The notes below the pieces were generated by a model, which saw only the letters and a list, made by a program, of their open reading frames with translations, had not been told where the DNA came from and did no database searches. This document shows, one piece after another, positions 1,511 through 17,253 of a stretch of DNA of 64,000 nucleotides. Numbering within the stretch: the stretch's first letter is position 1; each line of letters starts with the position of its first letter. The position numbers and the translations under genes are program-made. The stretch is from Bacillus sp. HMF5848. GTDB taxonomy: Bacteria > Bacillota > Bacilli > Bacillales > HMF5848. Location of the stretch: NCBI RefSeq assembly GCF_003944835.1, contig NZ_RWIV01000001.1:1713501-1777500 (forward strand), given 5' to 3'.

Positions 1511-2788
1511 TTACAGCGTTAATCGTGGTTGCTGAGCAGCAAGTTTGCCTTCTTCCACATTCACTTTTGTTAACAAGTAAATACCAATCAAAAAGAAGAG
1601 AACTAAGGATACAATACCAAATCGACTTGATCCTGTAAGTTGTCCGACTAATGCAAATAAAAATGGACCGAAAATGGCTGAAAACTTACCCATAATACCA
1701 TAAAAGCCAAAAAACTCTGCGTTACGATTCAATGGAACCATACTTCCAAAGATTGAACGACTTAATGCTTGGGCACCACCTTGAACGAAACCAACTGATG
1801 TTGCTAGTATATAAAAATGTAAAGCAGACGACATGAAATAACCAAAAATAACAATTGCTGTATAGACCCATAATGCGAGTATTAATGCACGTTTAGCAGT
1901 AATCTTTGAAGCCAACCAGCCAAACAAGAATGAAAAAGGAATACCGACAAATTGTGTGATTACTAACGCTGCAATTAAATCTGTAGAGCCTATACCTATA
2001 TCTTTACCGTAAATAGTTGCCATTTTGATAATTGTGGAAATTCCATCATTAAATAACCAAAATGCAATAAGAAATATGAATAATTGCTTATAATGGCGGA
2101 TTTCTGTAAATGTGTCTTTTATTCTAGCGAATCCAATTATTATGTATTGTCCCTTTTGTGTTTGAGTTGGTAGCTTTCTTTCTTTTACATGTCTAAAAAG
2201 AGGGATTGAAAATACGAACCACCAGAGTCCAACAGTAACAAAAGAAATCTGAGTAGCGACAAGTGTATTAGGTAGAAAAAATAAACTAGGCTTCATTATC
2301 ATTGCTAAATTGACAATTAATAATAGACCTCCACCTATATATCCGAATGCAAAGCCTCTTGCTGATACTTTATCAATATTCTTTTCTTCTGCAATTTCCG
2401 GTAAGAAAGCATCATAAAAAACGTTAGCCCCCGAAAACCCTACGGTACCTAAAATCATCAATAGAGATGCAAATATAAATTGCCCTTCACCGATAAAGTA
2501 CATGAGAATCGTGGCAATTATACCCATGTAGGCAAAAAAGCGAAGGAATTGCTTTTTGGAGCTACTGTAATCTGAGATTGCTCCTAATATTGGTGCTAGT
2601 ATTGCAACAATTAAAGCAGCGATGGCTGAGGAGTAACCATAATAAGAACTTGCCAATGATTCTGTAGCTCCTTTTGCAGCAACGTCATAATAAAAAACTG
2701 GAAATACTGCTGCCATAACAGTAGTTGCAAAAGCAGAGTTAGCCCAATCATACATTGTCCAACCGAAAATCGCTTTTTTATTTTTCAT
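1511..2788 (-). CDS. MFS transporter, UMF1 (Atg22-like) family
   Basis: This 425-residue protein has about twelve hydrophobic segments. Near its N-terminus it carries GWTMYDWANSAFATTV (9-24), the hallmark of UMF1/Atg22-like permeases; B. subtilis YxiO is of this kind. An MFS-type loop, ASKITAKR, follows the middle segments. The substrate is unknown in bacteria; the yeast relatives export amino acids from the vacuole. The ATG is preceded by GGAGG. The gene is transcribed towards the DUF429 gene and away from cheV. In B. subtilis a different MFS gene (ykuC) lies beside cheV-ykyB, so this may be a local replacement (inference). Confidence 0.85.
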   Translation of the reverse strand: MKNKKAIFGWTMYDWANSAFATTVMAAVFPVFYYDVAAKGATESLASSYYGYSSAIAALIVAILAPILGAISDYSSSKKQFLRFFAYMGIIATILMYFIGEGQFIFASLLMILGTVGFSGANVFYDAFLPEIAEEKNIDKVSARGFAFGYIGGGLLLIVNLAMIMKPSLFFLPNTLVATQISFVTVGLWWFVFSIPLFRHVKERKLPTQTQKGQYIIIGFARIKDTFTEIRHYKQLFIFLIAFWLFNDGISTIIKMATIYGKDIGIGSTDLIAALVITQFVGIPFSFLFGWLASKITAKRALILALWVYTAIVIFGYFMSSALHFYILATSVGFVQGGAQALSRSIFGSMVPLNRNAEFFGFYGIMGKFSAIFGPFLFALVGQLTGSSRFGIVSLVLFFLIGIYLLTKVNVEEGKLAAQQPRLTL

Positions 2789-3128
2789 AAGACCTCCAAG
2801 TGTATTTTTCTTTTAGCTTAGCAAATCATAGCCAAAAATCTACTAGTTTTGCAAAAAATTATTATAAATTTAATATTTCAAGTGAAGAAGCAATATTATG
2901 GAGTGCAGAACCTGAACTAAAGAGAAAAAAGGTCCTATACAACCCAGTTTTAAGTGCGAGGTTAATATTTGTCTTGGCCTTAGGACGTAATTCAAAAAAA
3001 TACTAACTTAGCTGCCACCGTATTTTGCAATATATATATATAAAGAATTGTGAGTACAAACCTTCCTTTCTCGCAAAATTCGACATATAATATAATTAAC
3101 ACAACTCCAATCAGGAAGGACGTTACGG
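2789..3128. other. Intergenic region between divergent MFS and cheV genes
   Basis: This AT-rich spacer contains overlapping TATAAT hexamers at 3086-3096, upstream of cheV, without a clear -35. A 68-codon frame crosses it but has no good ribosome binding site or family resemblance. I see no other structure. Confidence 0.4.
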
Positions 3129-4028
3129 ATGGATTCGAAAAAAGGTATATTACTAGAGAGTGGTACTAATGAATTAGAAATTGTTGAGTTTACTATAGGT
3201 AACAATAAATTTGGCATTAATGTTATTAAAGTAAAAGGAATTATTAATCCTATACCAGTAACAAAAATCCCTCATGCTCATCCTAATGTTGAGGGTATAA
3301 TTGAATTAAGAGGCGAAGTTTTACCAGTGGTTAATTTGATAAGTGCCCTTGGTCTTTCGGCCTCTACAGACTCTTCACATGATAAATTTATCGTATCTGA
3401 ATTTAACAAGCAGAAGATTGTATTTCATGTTAATAATGTTACGCAAATTCATCGTATTTCATGGGAACAAATAGAAAAACCATCTGATTTATACCAAGGT
3501 TTAGAATCTCATGTAACAGGAGTTATTAAACTAAATGATGAGATGATTTTACTTCTCGATTTTGAAAAAATTATTTTTGATATAAACCCTAATGCAGGCT
3601 TTAATGTAGATAAAATAAAGAATGCAACGACAGTTGATCGCTCAAAAAAATCGCTTGTTGTTGCTGAGGATTCACCAATGCTTCGTAAACTTCTATTCGA
3701 CACTTTGAGTGAAGCCGGTTATAGCAACTTAGAGTTTTTTGAGAATGGTAAAGACGCTTTACATTACTTAGAAAGTATTGCCGATAAGGATGTAACATCA
3801 CATGTTCAACTAGTTATTACTGATATTGAAATGCCTCAGATGGATGGACATCATTTAGCTAGACGTATTAAAGCTGATAATAGATTGAGTAAGCTCCCGG
3901 TTGTTATCTTCTCATCGCTTATTACAGACGACTTACGTCATAAAGGTGAAGTAGTAGGTGCAAATGCTCAAGTTAGTAAACCAGAAATTGCTGAATTAGT
4001 AGATATGATTGATAAATATATTTTATAA
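3129..4028 (+). CDS. cheV: Chemotaxis coupling/adaptation protein CheV
   Basis: CheV couples chemoreceptors to the CheA kinase and contributes to adaptation. The 299-residue product has an N-terminal CheW domain (about 10-155), with ELEIVEFTIGNNKFGINV at its start. A C-terminal receiver domain (about 174-299) follows. The receiver is complete: acidic pair Glu180-Asp181, phosphoacceptor Asp232 in ITDIEMPQMDG, Ser262 and Lys284. The length matches B. subtilis CheV. The ATG follows GGAAGGA. The gene converges on ykyB across a shared terminator, as in B. subtilis. Confidence 0.95.
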   Translation: MDSKKGILLESGTNELEIVEFTIGNNKFGINVIKVKGIINPIPVTKIPHAHPNVEGIIELRGEVLPVVNLISALGLSASTDSSHDKFIVSEFNKQKIVFHVNNVTQIHRISWEQIEKPSDLYQGLESHVTGVIKLNDEMILLLDFEKIIFDINPNAGFNVDKIKNATTVDRSKKSLVVAEDSPMLRKLLFDTLSEAGYSNLEFFENGKDALHYLESIADKDVTSHVQLVITDIEMPQMDGHHLARRIKADNRLSKLPVVIFSSLITDDLRHKGEVVGANAQVSKPEIAELVDMIDKYIL

Positions 4029-4033
4029 AACGA

Positions 4034-4067
4034 AAAAACCTTGTGAATATTAATTCACAAGGTTTTT
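4034..4067. terminator. Bidirectional terminator between cheV and ykyB
   Basis: AAAAAACCTTGTGAA pairs with TTCACAAGGTTTTT, giving a long stem with A and T tracts on both sides. It lies between two convergent genes. Confidence 0.85.
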
Positions 4068-4123
4068 GCACTAATAAGGGTTATAGACTATGTCTAGCTC
4101 AAAATTTTAGATATTTGCACTTA

Positions 4124-4591
4124 CTATAAATAAGATTGTCCTAGCCTTTTAAATACAGGTTTTTGATACGTTGGCCTGCGTCTTTGTGGTTTGCTTTCTT
4201 CTACGCCTACATACTTAATTAGTATAGATTTTGCCAATGACAAAGACATATGGACTTTAGGGTTTCGATATGAGTTATTTAATGTTCCTAAGTGTGGAAG
4301 CTTAGAGAAGTCATCTTTTGTAGGAGGCATATGGAAGTAAAATCCTCCTAATGAAACAAGAACATCAGATTGCTGTTGGCTATTTCGTGGGTTGCGAGAG
4401 AAGTGTAACCCTTCTTTCTTAGCTTTACCTTCAGCTAATAATTTTTCTAATGCTTTTCGTTTTAATGTATATAGAAATTTAGGGTCGGGTGCTGTTTTAG
4501 CATGACGGTTTACAATGAAGATTGCTTTTGCGAGGTCTTCAGGCGTAGCTATTGTTGAAGAGGGTTTGCTATCTTTATCGTATTTACTCAC
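4124..4591 (-). CDS. ykyB: YkyB family protein
   Basis: This 155-residue cytoplasmic protein of unknown function matches B. subtilis YkyB (154 residues) in length, in position next to cheV, and in motifs such as IFIVNRHAKTAPDP near residue 25. It is basic at both ends and has no membrane segment or catalytic signature I recognise. The ATG is preceded by GGAGCG. A 200-base spacer separates it from the divergent ppx-ppk operon. Confidence 0.85.
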   Translation of the reverse strand: MSKYDKDSKPSSTIATPEDLAKAIFIVNRHAKTAPDPKFLYTLKRKALEKLLAEGKAKKEGLHFSRNPRNSQQQSDVLVSLGGFYFHMPPTKDDFSKLPHLGTLNNSYRNPKVHMSLSLAKSILIKYVGVEESKPQRRRPTYQKPVFKRLGQSYL

Positions 4592-6359: not shown

Positions 6360-8471
6360 ATGGAAGATGGATACTCGCATTTAACTGAATACGATAATCC
6401 TGATTATTACAACAATAGAGAGCTTAGTTGGTTAGCATTTAATGAGCGTGTGTTAGAGGAAGCCTTTGATCATCATAACCCGTTGTTAGAACGGTTAAAG
6501 TTTTTAGCTATATTCGGATCCAATCTCGATGAGTTTTTTATGGTGCGTGTTGCAGGATTAAAAGACCAAGTAAAAGCTGGGTATAATAAACCAGAAAACA
6601 AGGCAGGACTAACTCCTAAACAACAGCTTAAGCAAATATCGGAAAAAAACCATCAACTTGTATTAAGAGCTTATGAATATTTTGAGAATGTGTTAGTTCA
6701 GGAATTGCAAAACGAAAATGTTTATATCCGCAAAATGGAAGAACTAAATGACACACAGCTTAGATTTCTGGAAGACTATTTTAATGAGCAAATATTCCCT
6801 GTACTAACTCCAATGGCTGTAGATGCATATCGTCCATTTCCGATGTTATTAAACAAAAGTCTAAATTTAGCTATTTTATTGGAAGATAAGCAGGCGCCGA
6901 TTGAGGAACAAGAAAAGCTTGCTATTGTTCAAGTTCCCTCAGTTTTGAACAGATTTATTCGTCTTCCATCTTCGACTGATGAGTATGCATATATGTTACT
7001 TGAAGATGTTATTCGCATTCATATTAATAAGCTATTCAAAGGATTTACTATAAAGAGTGCTACTGAATTTCGCATTACAAGAAATGCAGATATGACTATA
7101 CATGAAGAAGGCGCCAGAGACTTACTACGTGAAATAGAGAAAGAGTTAAAAAAGCGTAAGTGGGGGGCTGCTGTTCGATTAGAAATTACTGATAAAGGGG
7201 CAGACCCAAGTGTTTTACAGTTTTTGTTAAAAGCACTAGAAGTTCATGATAAAGATATATACATGTTAAATGGTCCTTTGGACTTAACAGCTTTATTTTC
7301 ATTTTATAAAGAGTTAGAGCAACACAAAGAGAATTTAATTTATGAAGCTCTAATTCCTCAACCACCTAAAGATTTAAAATCTGATGAAGATATTTTTCAG
7401 AAACTATTAGAACAAGATATTTTTTTACATCATCCATACGAATCATTTGAACCTGTTATAGATTTTATATCTGATGCAGCAGATGATGAAAATGTATTGG
7501 CAATTAAATCTACGTTATATCGAGTAAGTGGTGACTCTCCAATTATCGAGGCATTAAAGCGGGCGGCTGAAAATGGAAAGCAGGTCACTGTATTGGTTGA
7601 ATTAAAAGCACGTTTTGATGAAGAAAATAATGTGCAATGGGCAAAGGAGCTTGAAAAGGCTGGATGCCATGTTATATATGGTATGACACACTTGAAAACT
7701 CATAGTAAAATTACTCTTGTCGTTCGTAGAACGCACGGACAAATTGAACGGTTTGTTCACTTAGGCACAGGTAATTACAATGATCAAACGGCAAAAATTT
7801 ACACAGATATGGGGCTTTTAACGGCTAAACGAAAGTTCGGTATAGATGCAACTAATTTCTTTAATTATTTAAGTGGCTATACAGCAAAACCTGATTATCA
7901 CCATTTAGTAGTAGCACCATTTGATATACGAGATACGTTCATTAAGCTGATTGATGAGGAAATTAAATTCCACAAAAGATATAAAAATGGTAGGATTATT
8001 GCCAAAATGAATTCCATAACAGATAAACCGTTAATTATGAAGCTATATGAAGCATCTAGTGCCGGTGTTAAGATAGATTTAATTGTGCGAGGTATTTGCT
8101 GTTTAAAACCTGGAATAAAAGGTGTTAGTGAAAACATACGTGTTCGTAGTATAGTGGGACGCTTTCTTGAACATACTCGTATATTTTATTTTCATCATAA
8201 TGGTGAAGAAAAAATGTATTTATCTTCAGCTGATATGATGACTAGGAATATGATTAAACGAGTTGAAATACTATTTCCTATTTATGAAGGGTTCATAAAA
8301 AAGCGCATTAATAAAATGTTATCAATTGTTTTACAAGATAATATGAAAGCTCGTGAACAAGATAAAGATGGTGTATATCATTACGTAACAAGGCAACAAG
8401 ATGAAGCTATGATTGATTCCCAATTGACATTGTTTAATGCTGTCTACAGTGTTATGGAAGACGAAGAGTAA
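6360..8471 (+). CDS. ppk: Polyphosphate kinase (PPK1)
   Basis: PPK1 polymerises the gamma phosphate of ATP into polyphosphate, reversibly. With ATG at 6360, eight bases after AGGGTGG, the product has 703 residues; a GTG four codons earlier lacks a ribosome binding site. The N-terminal region has the family's [19 protein letters not shown] motif. The two phospholipase-D-like lobes carry the phosphorylated histidine in [10 protein letters not shown] (His448) and the second active-site histidine in [10 protein letters not shown] (His605). Their spacing of 157 residues equals that of the E. coli enzyme as I recall it. It is co-transcribed with ppx and followed by a terminator. Confidence 0.95.
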
Positions 8472-8481
8472 TATGCTTTTG

Positions 8482-8517
8482 AAAGGTTGTCTACTAAATG
8501 GGGCAACCTTGTTTTTT
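8482..8517 (+). terminator. Terminator of the ppx-ppk operon
   Basis: AAGGTTG and CAACCTT form a stem with a 14-base loop, followed by GTTTTTTAT, just after the ppk stop. Confidence 0.75.
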
Positions 8518-8672
8518 ATGTATAAAAAATTTGTATCTTATTCAGAGCTAAGTGTTAATGGGTTATTGCCCTCCACCCAAAGAGTGTTGGAACAATGAGT
8601 TACTATAATGTGTTAATTATATTTCAATAAGGCTAGTACCTTGTAGCACTTTTCATAATAGGAGTTGTTAAT

Positions 8673-9056
8673 ATGATAAAAGACTTTCAGTTGGTCCTGC
8701 TTGTTGGTGCAGGTGGGGGATTAGGCATGGCAATCCGACTAGGTATTGAGCAGTGGTTTTCAAGTACTCATTTTCCAATCGGCACGTTATTTGCAAATGT
8801 TAGCGGGTGCTTTCTAATCGCTATATTTGCTAGCCTATTTGACCACACAGGTCTCCGTTTGTTTTTAACGACGGGGATGTGTGGTGGATTAACTACGATG
8901 TCAACGTTCTCAGCAGGTGTAACAAGCTTAATGAAAGTATCCATGATTACTGCTGTGTTTTATGTCACAATATCTGTTGCAGGGGGCTTTCTTGCTGTTA
9001 TAATTGGAGACTCATTAGGAGACAAAATAAATAACCAGAGGAAGGTACAAGGATGA
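8673..9056 (+). CDS. crcB: Fluoride ion channel/exporter CrcB (Fluc), first copy
   Basis: Fluc proteins are small dual-topology channels that let fluoride leave the cytoplasm. This 127-residue product has four hydrophobic segments. It carries the family signatures GTLFANVSGCFL (pore asparagine) and GMCGGLTTMSTFSAG (the central sodium-site and phenylalanine region). The ATG follows AGGAG. It overlaps the second copy by four bases (ATGA). Bacilli often carry two divergent copies that pair as heterodimers, which the translational coupling here supports. I found no fluoride riboswitch in the 200-base leader. Confidence 0.92.
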   Translation: MIKDFQLVLLVGAGGGLGMAIRLGIEQWFSSTHFPIGTLFANVSGCFLIAIFASLFDHTGLRLFLTTGMCGGLTTMSTFSAGVTSLMKVSMITAVFYVTISVAGGFLAVIIGDSLGDKINNQRKVQG

Positions 9057-9400: not shown

Positions 9401-9506
9401 TGTTTTCTTACAAAATTAGAAAAAGATAGCAGTTCGCCCTTAGTGTCAAAATATGATATTATTATGTCGAAATAGTCGAAAAATATTTATGCGAGGACAT
9501 GATATT

Positions 9507-11546
9507 ATGTTAGCTAGTTCATCGGATTCGTTAAAAGATATTCTATTTGATATTGTCTTGACATATATTGACGACCTTGTTTTTGTGATGAAAGTGGAAT
9601 CGGATGAATCATTTACATATTTATATATGAATGAAAAAGCTTATAAAAAAGCAGGGGTTTCCACTGAAGCAATTGGTAAATGTATGAAAGATGTTTTGTC
9701 AATTAAAGTAGCAAATGATCTAGAAACGTATTATAAAGAAGTATTATGTAATAAAAAATCAATACGCTTTATAGATACGTCAAAGAGTGAAACGGGCCAA
9801 AGTCAATATGAGGAGTCTATATTAACTCCTGTTATAAGTAATACAGGAAAAGTAACACATATCGTCAGTGTAACCCGAGACATAACTGATAAGATAATAG
9901 AAAAACGAAAGCTTGAAGAGAGTGAACAGCGATATAAGTCTTTGTATGACCATAATTTGGACGCAATTTTTTCTTTTGATAAATCAGGCATATTTCAAGG
10001 TTTTAATCCACCATTCTCTCATATAACGGGCTACAAAACTGGTATGCTGAAGTTGTCAATTTATGAATTTATAAGCGAAGAAGACTATAACAAGATAAAT
10101 AATTTAATGACTGATATTTTTAATGGTAAAAGCGCAGAGACTGTTTGTAGAGCCCTCCACAAAAGTGGCCACAAAATTTATCTACACCTTAAAGCAGTAC
10201 CTATTGTTGTTAAGGGTAATGTACAGGGTGCATATGGTATTGCTAGAGATATTACAGAACAACTAAGTAAAGAAGAAATGATAAGATTTATGGCTTATCA
10301 TGATCAAGTTACAGGACTGAGAAATAGAATTTCATTGAAAGACTATTTACATAATGCCGTCGAAGAAGCGAAGCGATTTAATTCTCAAGTGGCAGTAATA
10401 TATTTTGATCTAGACAGATTTAAAAAGGTTAACGATACAATGGGGCATTACGCAGGAGATGAGTTGTTACAGCAGGTAGCGAGGCGATTAGAGTTAATAG
10501 AAAACGAAAAACTTGCTCTTTTTAGATTGAGTGGTGATGAGTTTATTGCTATTGTGACAGATAGTTCATTAGACGAGATTAAGTTATGTGCAGAAAAAAT
10601 CCTAGCTTGCTTTCGTTCACCATTTTTCTTGAAAAGATCTGTTGAGTACTATATTACAGCTAGCTTAGGCATCAGCTTGTATCCATCTGATGGAGAAGAG
10701 CCTCAAATTTTGATTAACAATGCTGATACAGCCATGTATCGTGTGAAGGATTGTGGTAGGGCACATTATCAGTTTTATAGTTTGGAGATGTATAAAGCTT
10801 CTAAAAGAGAAGTTCAACTAGAAGCAGCATTGCGCAAGGCGATAGAAAATAAGGAATTTACTCTTTATTATCAGCCGCGAATAAATATGATAACAAATAC
10901 TGTTACAAGCTATGAAGCTTTACTTCGTTGGAGTAGCCATCAGTTAGGTTTTATTTCACCAGCTGATTTTATACCACTTGCTGAAGATAGTGGACTTATT
11001 ATCCCAATAGGTGAGTGGGTTATTAATGAAGCATGTCGCCAGCTTAAAGAATGTTTGCAGAAAAAGAGCAATGCAAAGCCTATCGCCGTTAATTTGTCCG
11101 CAAAGCAATTTCAACAAGATAACTTAGTTGACATGATCGAAAGCATGGTACGAAAGTACAATGTACCACCTGAACTATTAGAAGTAGAAATTACGGAGAC
11201 AGTTTTACATAATACAGAGAGAACTTTACTTACCTTAGAGAGATTAGCTGCATTCGGAGTGACAATTTCAATAGATGATTTTGGAACAGGATATTCATCA
11301 TTAAGTTATTTGCGAAAGTTTCCTATTCATTCGTTAAAAATAGATCGCTCTTTTATAAAAGGGATTACAACAAATGAAAAAGATGCTGCAATCACTACAA
11401 CGATTATTCATCTAGGAAATAGCTTAGGTTTAGAAGTGATAGCAGAGGGTGTTGAGACAAAACAACAGGTAGATTTTTTGTTGAAAAATCATTGTATTAA
11501 AGCACAAGGATTTTATTACAGTAAACCAAAGCCCTTTAAAAAATAG
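9507..11546 (+). CDS. PAS-PAS-GGDEF-EAL cyclic-di-GMP signalling protein
   Basis: I choose ATG 9507, ten bases after GCGAGG; an in-frame start at 9453 has no ribosome binding site. The 679-residue product has no membrane segment. Two PAS domains come first; the second starts near SEQRYKSLYDHNLDAIFSF. A GGDEF domain follows (signature SGDEF, 342-346), then an EAL domain (Glu470-Ala-Leu in YEALLRW, plus IDDFGTGYSSL and LKIDRSF). The EAL residues look intact, so c-di-GMP hydrolysis is plausible. SGDEF departs from GGDEF by one residue, and such variants can be active or regulatory. The PAS ligand is unknown. Confidence 0.9.
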   Translation: MLASSSDSLKDILFDIVLTYIDDLVFVMKVESDESFTYLYMNEKAYKKAGVSTEAIGKCMKDVLSIKVANDLETYYKEVLCNKKSIRFIDTSKSETGQSQYEESILTPVISNTGKVTHIVSVTRDITDKIIEKRKLEESEQRYKSLYDHNLDAIFSFDKSGIFQGFNPPFSHITGYKTGMLKLSIYEFISEEDYNKINNLMTDIFNGKSAETVCRALHKSGHKIYLHLKAVPIVVKGNVQGAYGIARDITEQLSKEEMIRFMAYHDQVTGLRNRISLKDYLHNAVEEAKRFNSQVAVIYFDLDRFKKVNDTMGHYAGDELLQQVARRLELIENEKLALFRLSGDEFIAIVTDSSLDEIKLCAEKILACFRSPFFLKRSVEYYITASLGISLYPSDGEEPQILINNADTAMYRVKDCGRAHYQFYSLEMYKASKREVQLEAALRKAIENKEFTLYYQPRINMITNTVTSYEALLRWSSHQLGFISPADFIPLAEDSGLIIPIGEWVINEACRQLKECLQKKSNAKPIAVNLSAKQFQQDNLVDMIESMVRKYNVPPELLEVEITETVLHNTERTLLTLERLAAFGVTISIDDFGTGYSSLSYLRKFPIHSLKIDRSFIKGITTNEKDAAITTTIIHLGNSLGLEVIAEGVETKQQVDFLLKNHCIKAQGFYYSKPKPFKK

Positions 11547-13965: not shown

Positions 13966-15516
13966 TTATATTGTATTCCCGATTATATTAAGTTCCTGTA
14001 GGGACTGCTGTAAATCAGCCTTTATCTGTACTTTGTCACTTAAAATAATACCTAGCTCAATCATGGTGTTAGCTATTTCAGAGCGAATACCAGTTACAAT
14101 GGTTTCGCATCCTAACAATTTAAACCCTTCAATGATTCTAAAAAGGTGAGAAACAACTGCAGTGTCCATATACGCTACGCCAGATAAATCAATAATTATT
14201 TTTTGAAACTTTGCGGTTTCAATTTCTCGTAATGTTTTTTCTTGAAGTCTTTTTGCACGAAAAGTGTCCATAGTCCCAACAATTGGTAAAATGCCAATTG
14301 AATTGGCTAGGGGAATAATAGGAACAGAAAGCTCTTCTATCATTTCTCTTTGAGATATTAAGACAGAGTTTTTGTAATTTGTGTAGCTGAAATGGTAGTG
14401 ACGCACAAATAAGTCCAAATAGTAATTCGTTTTTTTGGTTAGGGAGATAATCTGCTCAATATCAAATTGCTCTTGTAAACGAAAGAAATTATATAGGAAA
14501 TCAGAATATACTTCTCGTAAACTATGAAACCAATCTAGACTAATAATCGACGGTAAATCACTTTTACCCCAAGCTTCACCGAAGTTTTTAGCGATAGTAA
14601 TTAATTCATGCTCAGCATCAGCTTCTAAGTGCGACAAAATGGTATGTGCTGCTTCAAATAATTGATCTTCATTAAAAGGAGAGTCTTCTACTCTTTCAAG
14701 TAGCGATTTTGTTCTATCTTTAATAGTTTTGTCGAAGATTTCTGTATTAGACGAGATAAAATCAAAAAAGGTTTGATTGTTTTCGTAACTTAAATCAGTC
14801 AATTGGTTCACCCCTAGTGTGTTTTGTTCTCGTATTGGAAAATATATTTTGAAAGTTGTACCTTGAGAAAGATCGCTATGTACATCAACACGCGCACCGT
14901 GATTATGTAAAGTTGAAAACACCTGTGTTAGTCCCATACCAGTGCCATTATCCTTTGTTGTAAAAAAAGGAGTTCCTAGTATATTAAGCTTGTCTTTAGG
15001 AATGCCTACACCAGTATCTTGAATAGTAATTAATAGCAAATCTTCTTGTTTTTCGTGGGATATAGTAATGCTGCCTTTATCAGGTATGGCTTCAAAAGCA
15101 TTTTTAATTAAATTAAAGAATGCTTTCTTCAACGCATTGCGTTGACCCAAAACTTTTATCTGTTTATCATAAAAATATGTATGTATGGTGACACGATAAA
15201 TCTCGTTTTGAAAGAGAGCTAGAACTGATTCAAGTTCACTGCACATATTTATAGTTGTATAGGATTCCGTTTTTTGATCGGCTTTAGATACTTGAAGCAT
15301 GTTATTCATTGTCAAAAGAGCGGTGTCAAGCTCTTGTAATGCAATATCTAAGTAGTTATCTTCGTTCGTTTCTTTTACTAACTGCAAAAAGCCTTTGACA
15401 GTCGTTAAAGGATTCCGTACTTCATGCGCAATACCAGCGGCAATTTGTCCAATTGAAGCAAGTTGACTGACACGTATTTTATTATATACATCACTGTGAT
15501 CCCCATTTTGTGACAA
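13966..15516 (-). CDS. Soluble histidine kinase fused to an RsbR-like STAS region
   Basis: This 516-residue protein has no membrane segment. Residues 15-228 are a HisKA/HATPase unit: phosphoacceptor His31 in GIAHEVRNPL, N-box Asn139 in NLIKNAFEAI, G1 DTGVGIP (167-173) and G2 GTGMGL (191-196). Residues 240-390 are helical, like the N-terminal modules of RsbR paralogues. Residues 395-505 are a STAS domain with DLSGVAYMDT and GIRSEIANT. Thr452 and Thr484 fall where RsbR proteins are phosphorylated by RsbT. The start is TTG 15516, ten bases after AAAGGAGGG. It overlaps the RsbT-like gene by 26 bases. Fusion of these modules is unusual; the role is inferred. Confidence 0.85.
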   Translation of the reverse strand: MSQNGDHSDVYNKIRVSQLASIGQIAAGIAHEVRNPLTTVKGFLQLVKETNEDNYLDIALQELDTALLTMNNMLQVSKADQKTESYTTINMCSELESVLALFQNEIYRVTIHTYFYDKQIKVLGQRNALKKAFFNLIKNAFEAIPDKGSITISHEKQEDLLLITIQDTGVGIPKDKLNILGTPFFTTKDNGTGMGLTQVFSTLHNHGARVDVHSDLSQGTTFKIYFPIREQNTLGVNQLTDLSYENNQTFFDFISSNTEIFDKTIKDRTKSLLERVEDSPFNEDQLFEAAHTILSHLEADAEHELITIAKNFGEAWGKSDLPSIISLDWFHSLREVYSDFLYNFFRLQEQFDIEQIISLTKKTNYYLDLFVRHYHFSYTNYKNSVLISQREMIEELSVPIIPLANSIGILPIVGTMDTFRAKRLQEKTLREIETAKFQKIIIDLSGVAYMDTAVVSHLFRIIEGFKLLGCETIVTGIRSEIANTMIELGIILSDKVQIKADLQQSLQELNIIGNTI

Positions 15517-15895
15517 TGATTCTTGTCCCTCCTTTGTTTTTTGTTTGAATATTAAACGAGTCCATCAAACGCTTTACACCTAATAAACCAAGACCTAACC
15601 CCGATGAATTCTTATTGATTTGGCCAGCTAAAATCGCGTCAATATTCGGTATACCGACCCCATTGTCAGTTACTGTAATCTTAATACCATTATTAGGCGA
15701 AGAAATAAATTCACAAGTAAATAGTCCGTTGCTTCTAGAATGAGCTAGGATATTACGGGTTAACTCGGATATAGATACGAGAATTTTTTGTTCGTCAACT
15801 TTTGTAAAGTAAAGCTGGTGCATCTTAATTAGTTTTCTAGCTGTAGATAAAGCTATTAAGATATCATCTTCTCGATTGATTTGAACATTGTACAT
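15491..15895 (-). CDS. RsbT-like serine/threonine switch kinase (anti-sigma-factor type ATPase)
   Basis: From ATG 15895, preceded by GGGGGAT, the product has 134 residues, nearly the length of RsbT (133). It is a single GHKL ATPase domain: N-box ISELTRNILAHS (Glu44, Asn48), G1 VTDNGVGIP (Asp77) and G2 SGLGLGLLGVKRLMD (from 98). The last motif is very close to RsbT of the stressosome. All nucleotide-binding residues are present, so kinase activity is likely. It is the first gene of the operon with the histidine kinase-STAS gene, its probable substrate or partner. I see no RsbS, RsbX or PP2C phosphatase gene nearby. Confidence 0.85.
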   Translation of the reverse strand: MYNVQINREDDILIALSTARKLIKMHQLYFTKVDEQKILVSISELTRNILAHSRSNGLFTCEFISSPNNGIKITVTDNGVGIPNIDAILAGQINKNSSGLGLGLLGVKRLMDSFNIQTKNKGGTRIIVTKWGSQ

Positions 15896-15928: not shown

Positions 15929-15957
15929 ATTATACGTAAGATGGAGGGGATTGTAAA
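15929..15957 (-). promoter_or_regulatory. Sigma-A-type promoter of the RsbT-like/kinase operon
   Basis: On the minus strand TTTACA (15957-15952), a 17-base spacer and TATAAT (15934-15929) make a near-consensus promoter, about 34 bases before the RsbT-like start codon. Confidence 0.65.
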
Positions 15958-15976
15958 ATGGTTTAATCCCATTTTA
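15954..15976. promoter_or_regulatory. Perfect inverted repeat, candidate operator between the divergent operons
   Basis: TAAAATGG and CCATTTTA are perfect eight-base arms separated by seven bases. The repeat overlaps the -35 of the RsbT-like operon and lies upstream of ykuI, so a bound regulator could act on both. The binding protein is unknown. Confidence 0.4.
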
Positions 15977-16038: not shown

Positions 16039-17253
16039 ATGGATCCACTTGAAATTTTATCAAATATACATATGCTTACACCATATTATCAAGCAGTTTT
16101 TAGCTCGGATGAGCATCGTGTAGTAGGGTATGAGTTGTTAGCGTATTTTAAAGGTGACCAACAGGATCTTCCTATTGGGAGCTTGTTTTTTGATTCATCT
16201 GTTCCTGAGGAATATAGAATTGAAATAGATGATACTGTTTTAGAGATGGCATTGTCAGACATGATTAAAGTAGATGGCAATTTAATTTTATTTATTAATC
16301 GTAATCCTAATTTGTTAATGCAAGGCCAAGGTGAATCAACTTTACAACTGTTGAAGAAATATGAGATTAAAGGTCTAAGGTTAACTAATATTGTTATTGA
16401 AATATCTATGGATGATTTTTCTGGAGATGTTGAGCAGCTGAGTCACCTCCTTCAGTACTACAAAACATACGGGTTGAAGATTGCGGTAGATGATATTGGA
16501 AGAAAAACAAGTAATCTTCAAACTGTAGGACGTTTATCTCCAAATATTATTAGAATAGACCTCCAAAAATTACGCTTACAAACGCAACTTGATACTTATG
16601 AGGATGTGTTATATTCATTTTCGTTGTTAGCAAGACGTGTTGGTGCCACAATTTTATATGAAGATATAGAGGCATCCTATCAATTACATTATGCATGGCG
16701 TAATGGTGGTCGGTATTATCAAGGATATTACTTACATAAGCCTACAAGGCAATTGGTTGAGGTCGATATTCTAAAAGAACGATTAAGAGAAGAATGTCAT
16801 CAGTTTATTGTTTTTGAAAAAAATAGGATAAAAGCGTTGTATGAACTGAGGGATTTATTAAACGAAAGGACTCAAGCTGTAGTTTCTAAAATAAAGAAAG
16901 ATTTACCAATCAATGATTGGCTACTAGAGATTGCAAAAGAATTACAAGATATTAGCTTTCGTCTATATGTGTGTAATGAAGATGGATTTCAATTATCAGC
17001 TAATGTAGAAAAATATGATGATTTTTGGGAAATGAAATTAGATGCATATCAAAAAAATTGGAGCTGGCGTCCGTATTTTTTGGAGAATATTATTCGAATG
17101 AGGCTAAATAATAAAGGATTATTATCCGACCTATATAATGATATCGATAAAGCAGTTACGATACGCACGTTTTCGTTTCCGTTACAAGACAACCAATTTT
17201 TATTTGTGGATTTGAAGTATGAGTATCTTTATGATTTGAATGTACACTTGTAG
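16039..17253 (+). CDS. ykuI: EAL-domain c-di-GMP-binding protein YkuI
   Basis: The 404-residue product closely matches B. subtilis YkuI in length and layout: an N-terminal EAL domain (about 1-245) and a C-terminal PAS-like YkuI_C domain (about 255-404). The EAL signature reads ELL (32-34, in GYELLAYF), and KIAVDDIGRKTSN supplies part of the metal site. B. subtilis YkuI binds c-di-GMP with no clear hydrolase activity, so this may be an effector. The ATG follows GGGAGG. The gene diverges from the RsbT-like/kinase operon across a 143-base spacer with an inverted repeat. Confidence 0.9.
   Translation: MDPLEILSNIHMLTPYYQAVFSSDEHRVVGYELLAYFKGDQQDLPIGSLFFDSSVPEEYRIEIDDTVLEMALSDMIKVDGNLILFINRNPNLLMQGQGESTLQLLKKYEIKGLRLTNIVIEISMDDFSGDVEQLSHLLQYYKTYGLKIAVDDIGRKTSNLQTVGRLSPNIIRIDLQKLRLQTQLDTYEDVLYSFSLLARRVGATILYEDIEASYQLHYAWRNGGRYYQGYYLHKPTRQLVEVDILKERLREECHQFIVFEKNRIKALYELRDLLNERTQAVVSKIKKDLPINDWLLEIAKELQDISFRLYVCNEDGFQLSANVEKYDDFWEMKLDAYQKNWSWRPYFLENIIRMRLNNKGLLSDLYNDIDKAVTIRTFSFPLQDNQFLFVDLKYEYLYDLNVHL

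Follow-up and report, generated by a model that had tools for sequence, protein, structure and literature searches.

What does an RsbT-type switch kinase control when the gene that it overlaps encodes a histidine kinase fused to an RsbR-like protein, and which part of such a pair is the input and which the output? The question is raised by a locus in the window analysed here, a stretch of 64,000 nucleotides from Bacillus sp. HMF5848. Among the known recipients of stressosome signals are sigma-B, enzymes of cyclic-di-GMP, and two-component proteins that are separate from the stressosome, and how RsbT acts on histidine kinases is an open question (PMC9237108). In Bacillus subtilis, RsbT phosphorylates T171 of RsbRA, and T205 under extreme stress, and the release of RsbT activates RsbU (PMC3944199). 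A preliminary description of the locus had proposed a compact stressosome-like switch, in which partner switching is tuned by histidine phosphorylation or by ATP state.

The gene pair and its host genome

The coordinates, the strand, and the 26-base overlap of rsbT with the kinase gene given in the preliminary description were all correct on re-reading (Table 1). The gene for the fusion protein, named HK-RsbR, begins with a TTG codon that has a strong Shine-Dalgarno sequence within rsbT. Upstream, a putative sigma-A-like promoter ends 33 bp before the ATG of rsbT, and the inverted repeat at its -35 hexamer may be an operator; the repeat is short, and a chance origin is conceivable.

Table 1. 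Positions of the gene pair, its upstream signals, and the domains of HK-RsbR in the window
Feature	Position	Strand	Details
RsbT-type switch kinase gene, 134 aa	15491..15895 (stop codon included)	minus	ATG at 15895; coding span without stop 15494-15895
HK-RsbR fusion gene, 516 aa	13966..15516 (stop codon included)	minus	TTG at 15516; coding span without stop 13969-15516
Overlap of rsbT 3' end and HK-RsbR 5' end	15491-15516		26 bp
Shine-Dalgarno sequence of HK-RsbR, AAAGGAGGG	about 15526-15535		within rsbT
Candidate sigma-A-like promoter of the two-gene unit, TTTACA-17-TATAAT	15929..15957	minus	11/12 consensus positions, match only
8-bp inverted repeat TAAAATGG/CCATTTTA	15954..15976		overlaps -35 hexamer before rsbT
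HisKA, residues 23-77	15285..15450	minus	Pfam 23-81, E 1.4e-12; phosphoacceptor His31
HATPase_c, residues 125-229	14830..15144	minus	Pfam E 2.1e-20
Helical sensor domain of the RsbR N-terminal type, with linker helix, about residues 240-395	14332..14797	minus	model helices, 7b0u
STAS, about residues 396-506	13999..14331	minus	Pfam 404-490, E 5.6e-17
Thr452 codon	14161-14163	minus	in STAS
Thr484 codon	14065-14067	minus	in STAS

The pair is flanked by a PAS-PAS-GGDEF-EAL gene (window 9453-11546) and an EAL-YkuI_C gene (16039-17253), whose order is kept in close relatives (9/29 and 8/29 loci, respectively). The flanking GGDEF-EAL, YkuI-type, and phosphoesterase genes are common only to the closest relatives of the window, not to the pair's carriers in other genera.

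No RsbS, RsbX, or response-regulator gene adjoins the window pair, as had been claimed, and the claim can be extended to the whole genome for other stressosome parts. The host has a single RsbT gene, a search with the RsbR half returned no second RsbR (the only STAS relative was SpoIIAA, at 0.001), and no RsbU_N was found over the cut-off, either in the host or in the four f19/g86 genomes carrying the pair. The remaining single-domain STAS proteins of the host do not adjoin an RsbT. RsbS was found beside none of the pairs read, the host locus included, and judged by RsbS the pair is not a stressosome.

The sigB-like gene of the host (L230, G000:C1:250000-266000, 8159-8908) scores just under the cut-off of the SigB model and stands alone between ndoA/mazF-like and tex-like genes, with neither rsbRST-rsbU-rsbV-rsbW nor rsbX there. 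In B. subtilis, the ndoA-tex interval is the site of the rsb operon. The host carries spoIIAA-spoIIAB-sigF and a SpoIIE-type protein, and is therefore very likely a spore former. Its genome has further partner-switch sets: in L002 (G000:C1:2470533-2473826), a STAS gene comes after the gene of a PAS-PP2C protein whose C-terminus is an anti-sigma-type ATPase, and in L008 (G000:C1:961131-964421), a membrane PP2C adjoins an RsbW-like/STAS pair.

The RsbT-type switch kinase

The 134-residue protein contains HATPase_c and HATPase_c_2 domains, and a profile built from 16 of its relatives matches SpoIIAB at 1.8e-10. Its N box, G1, and G2 residues (E44, N48, D77, G79, G81, G99, G101, and G103) are invariant. 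As expected of an RsbT, the protein is a GHKL ATPase of SpoIIAB-like fold in which none of the three boxes is damaged. It shares 34-43% identity with RsbTs of sigB clusters and 26% with the SpoIIAB-region match of the host. In a tree of RsbTs only, it groups with the RsbTs linked to HK-RsbR, apart from those of sigB clusters; this split has 99% SH-aLRT support, but the tree is supportive rather than final, because several long branches meet near the fork.

The HK-RsbR protein

The N-terminal half of the 516-residue protein is a soluble histidine kinase with an intact His31, N box, G1, and G2, all of them conserved across 25 aligned copies. Among solved structures, the best match of the kinase half is KinB and that of the STAS half is RsbR. 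Over residues 383-495, the similarity to RsbR STAS domains of solved structure reaches E 1e-21, residues 382-490 match the NCBIfam model of YtvA at 4e-23, and standalone RsbR-like proteins of about 280 residues align to residues 232-512 with 30-34% identity. The AlphaFold2 model (mean pLDDT 74.6) shows an all-helical middle and a STAS fold, with an arrangement of the domains that is unreliable because pTM is 0.40. The structural alignment of residues 249-515 of this model with the full-length RsbR of Listeria (7b0u) spans 257 residues and has a Z of 17.6, and the helical middle therefore fits the N-terminal domain of RsbR. The match to 7b0u was obtained in two structural searches and agrees with the sequence, while the VIA-align table covers mostly the kinase part.

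As modelled, then, the protein is a complete RsbR, sensor domain included, placed C-terminal to a soluble histidine kinase. It has the helical (globin-like) N-terminal domain and the STAS domain of an RsbR co-antagonist. Thr452 lies in a D-T-A motif and Thr484 in an N-T motif, and from alignment and family knowledge we take them to be the equivalents of T171 and T205 of RsbRA. The intact kinase, the RsbR-like region with a STAS fold, the two threonines at positions phosphorylated by RsbT, and the presence of both phospho-chemistries in one polypeptide had all been claimed before, and all are borne out by the domain make-up, the motifs, and the conservation described here.

Distribution and linkage of the pair

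The family-level sample consisted of the source genome only. The wider samples comprised 299 genomes at the order level and 399 genomes of Bacilli, from 146 genera, at the class level. Full-length HK-RsbR was found in 26 of the 299 order-level genomes, the source genome not counted, and at the class level, where a match at E <= 1e-85 was required, in 43/399 genomes spread over 32 of the 146 genera. In total, 68 copies were collected, and the 65 with an in-frame STAS were used for the tree.

An RsbT gene is linked to 35 of the 65 tree copies. In 34 of them, the RsbT frame overlaps the 5' end of HK-RsbR, and the remaining one is L156, whose linked RsbT is divergent and interrupted. The outer neighbours of the pair vary from genus to genus, and the RsbT/HK-RsbR pair is thus a conserved unit. 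A second class has no linked RsbT and consists mainly of one clade of 22 copies and another of 3. Two findings that, by the preliminary description, would have refuted it, a missing STAS fold and a lack of conserved gene pairing, did not materialise.

Several variants of the architecture were also encountered. Five RsbT-linked copies (L084, L086, L087, L088, and L089) form a subclass that is extended at the N-terminus by about 110 residues, which may be a PAS-like sensor, and that has an RsbT branch of its own. In L091 (G003:C20, 6207-7462), the HK-RsbR gene behind an intact RsbT has decayed to a broken remnant, while another HK-RsbR, one without RsbT (L083), is retained in that genome. In L166, L175, and L176, a STAS frame directly follows the frame of the kinase and RsbR N-terminal domain, which may reflect decay or a genuine separation into two genes; as STAS persists there as an adjacent reading frame, these copies were rejected as STAS-less kinases. 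L090 was likewise rejected as a case in which separate genes naturally encode the kinase and RsbR, its frameshift lying inside the kinase. L036 to L038 and similar matches are PAS-histidine kinases that have only the kinase core in common with HK-RsbR, and a contig scan with the single protein as query gave unrelated histidine kinases only.

The STAS threonine motif and the presence of RsbT

The acceptor motif, D451-T452...[N/D]483-T484, was scored as a whole, because drift leaves a threonine in the aligned column of several RsbT-less copies; a perfect split by threonine columns was rejected for the same reason. Copies were regarded as RsbT-associated (39) when RsbT was linked (35), when the motif was kept without an adjacent RsbT (3), or when the copy lay at a contig end (1). 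The motif is intact in 36/39 RsbT-associated copies and in 0/25 RsbT-less ones, a correlation of little formal power on the tree, because the RsbT-less copies trace back to only some two or three independent loss events; an independent-pairs test on the 65-copy tree had too few events for significance. When only linked RsbTs are counted, 32 of the 35 copies have the motif. The exceptions are L157, which lacks both threonines, and L153 and L156, which lack Thr484.

The loss of constraint is concentrated in the STAS domain. When 497 columns were ranked, without preselection, by the constraint lost in the absence of RsbT, T418, T452, K422, and T484 came first, and all of the top 20 fell within STAS. 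Within the RsbT-less clade, pairwise identity averages 64.5% in the kinase, 60% in the RsbR sensor, and 53% in STAS, as opposed to 59%, 34%, and 61% in RsbT-associated copies, so that STAS is the most constrained part only where RsbT is present. The kinase residues, namely His31 and those of the N box, G1, and G2, show no variation in 25/25 RsbT-less copies.

Three copies, in G427, G332, and G407, keep both threonines although no RsbT adjoins them, and each of these genomes has an RsbT elsewhere. In G427 and G332 this distant RsbT is a solo gene that falls inside the HK-linked RsbT clade, as predicted from the kept motif, and G407 is ambiguous, with one RsbT in a sigB cluster and another branching near the RsbTs of the N-extended subclass. 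G053, G007, G260, and G090 have a sigB-cluster RsbT and have lost the motif, so a sigB-cluster RsbT does not maintain it. In a further locus (L207 in G311, about 1782-4531), a standalone RsbR-STAS gene with an intact motif, apparently frameshifted, is followed by RsbT and then by an HK-RsbR without the motif (K452, I484); the roles look divided between the two copies.

Conserved linkage, a separate RsbT clade, and the co-loss of the STAS motif with RsbT together support RsbT as the partner of HK-RsbR, in agreement with the earlier suggestion. For the proposed binding and phosphorylation of the RsbR-type STAS by RsbT, the co-loss is indirect support.

Phosphotransfer specificity and proposed mechanism

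The specificity residues of the window kinase (T38, T39, G42, F43, Q45, and L46) read TTGFQL. TAGFQL occupies these positions in 48/65 copies, and T[A/S/T]GFQL in nearly all. According to Davidson et al., the verified Spo0F kinases KinA and KinE have TAGFQL, KinD has TGGFQL, and the experimentally tested Dtox_1918 has TTGFQL; the verified sporulation kinases are all orphans (PMC6136694). The window kinase thus has the residues of verified Spo0F kinases, being the same as Dtox_1918 and one residue off KinA. It is also an orphan HisKA-HATPase protein: no response-regulator gene was found near any HK-RsbR copy read. At least two other kinases of the host have TTGFQL as well, so these residues mark the sporulation-kinase group rather than a proven target. 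Judged by them, Spo0F is the most likely acceptor of the phosphoryl group.

We consider it reasonably probable that the pair is a dedicated unit, in which RsbT controls an orphan cytoplasmic sporulation-type histidine kinase through its fused C-terminal RsbR, with Spo0F as the likely recipient. RsbT would bind the STAS domain of HK-RsbR and phosphorylate Thr452, with Thr484 as a presumed second site. STAS phosphorylation, together with the signal read by the RsbR sensor domain, would set the conformation of the RsbR dimer, which would in turn switch His31 autophosphorylation in the HisKA/HATPase part, and the phosphoryl group would pass from His31 to Spo0F of the sporulation phosphorelay. The legs of this model that sequence analysis establishes are the domains, the catalytic residues, the linkage, the motif co-loss, the orphan status, and the Spo0F-type residues.

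Thus RsbT and RsbR are probably the input and the histidine kinase the output, with a sign of regulation that can only be inferred. This direction is suggested by the kinase core, which is invariant in the 25 motif-less copies, and by its Spo0F-kinase residues; the same evidence speaks against histidine phosphorylation tuning partner switching as the output. It is also suggested by the searches that found no RsbU_N and no RsbS, and by the histidine kinase being the sole enzyme attached to RsbR and outlasting RsbT. The compact stressosome-like switch proposed at the outset had the parts right, but its direction was probably reversed. Alternatively, HK-RsbR could be mainly a platform for sensing and sequestering, with signal-released RsbT as the output, which would activate some other protein, such as a PP2C phosphatase, in the manner of the sigma-B pathway. 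RsbR/RsbS and RsbT have this very role in B. subtilis (PMC3944199), and the host has possible targets in its seven strong SpoIIE-type phosphatase matches, yet this arrangement is unlikely: neither the host nor the four f19/g86 pair carriers have an RsbU_N over the cut-off, no RsbS, which is the holder of RsbT in known stressosomes, was found, and the kinase stays invariant in the 25 copies without a linked RsbT, so that it has a function of its own.

If the same RsbT/RsbR-controlled kinase is accepted, its phosphate might go not to Spo0F but to a different response regulator. An orphan kinase can act on a range of receivers, and the specificity residues are degenerate (PMC6136694). We nevertheless regard this as improbable, given T[A/S/T]GFQL in nearly all copies, unlike the direct Spo0A kinases of the same study, and the lack of a response-regulator gene near any copy read. 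That HK-RsbR is an extra RsbR paralogue of an ordinary sigma-B stressosome, sharing the RsbS and RsbT of the sigB cluster, would suit the many carrier genomes that possess an RsbU_N protein and a sigB-cluster RsbT, but is very improbable, being contradicted for the host by its solitary sigB-like gene and elsewhere by the motif loss in G053, G007, G260, and G090 and by the separate clade of HK-linked RsbTs.

With sensor, RsbT target, and kinase in one polypeptide, the action of RsbT on histidine kinases becomes testable with two purified proteins, and the family supplies a natural contrast in the orthologues that have retained the kinase but no longer have RsbT or the acceptor motif of STAS. 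If the output of the dedicated unit is Spo0F, general-stress parts would be wired directly into the sporulation decision, and the distribution suggests such a rewiring of stress-sensing parts in many Bacilli. A wider interpretation, which we advance tentatively and with slightly less than even confidence, is that of an RsbS-free reduced stressosome: RsbT would phosphorylate the STAS domain of a Spo0F kinase, a Ser/Thr switch would gate the histidine kinase in a two-protein loop that partly decides sporulation in many Bacilli, and sigma-B machinery would have been recruited to the Spo0 phosphorelay.

Comparison with known systems

The families involved (RsbT, RsbR, and an orphan sporulation-type kinase) are known. 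In the literature searched, which mostly excluded subscription papers, so that absence from it is weak evidence, the architecture and wiring were not found described: there was no published family with this architecture, no RsbR-histidine kinase fusion, no RsbS-free RsbT-RsbR pair, and no stressosome part acting on a sporulation kinase.

Several systems resemble the pair in part. Like the B. cereus RsbK-RsbY system, it involves a histidine kinase as a stress input in the place of the stressosome. To our knowledge, RsbK has no STAS or RsbT part. It also differs in being a hybrid kinase, which includes a receiver domain and hands phosphate on to RsbY (PMC4574943, PMC9912610). In other phyla, stressosome parts are likewise tied to histidine kinases, namely in RSTX modules beside HisKA/REC proteins and in histidine kinases with RsbU_N (PMC9237108, PMC12143880). 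In RSTX modules, RsbR, RsbS, and RsbT occur separately, with the kinase gene lying downstream, whereas in the window RsbR lies within the kinase, with no RsbS or RsbU_N. YtvA, a LOV-STAS paralogue of RsbR, also joins a sensory domain to an RsbR-type STAS, but HK-RsbR, which has no LOV domain, combines a histidine kinase with the complete sensor domain of RsbR.

With KinA to KinE, the window kinase shares an orphan HisKA-HATPase core and T[A/T]GFQL, and KinB is the best solved match of its kinase half; the sensor of HK-RsbR is the C-terminal RsbR, in contrast to their N-terminal PAS or membrane domains, and an RsbT is linked to it. Finally, the RsbRA-RsbS-RsbT stressosome of B. subtilis is similar in its RsbT-type kinase, its helical sensor with STAS, and its two STAS threonines, while the window pair is set apart by the absence of RsbS, RsbX, and RsbU, by an RsbR fused behind a histidine kinase, and by its probable output, His-Asp phosphotransfer.
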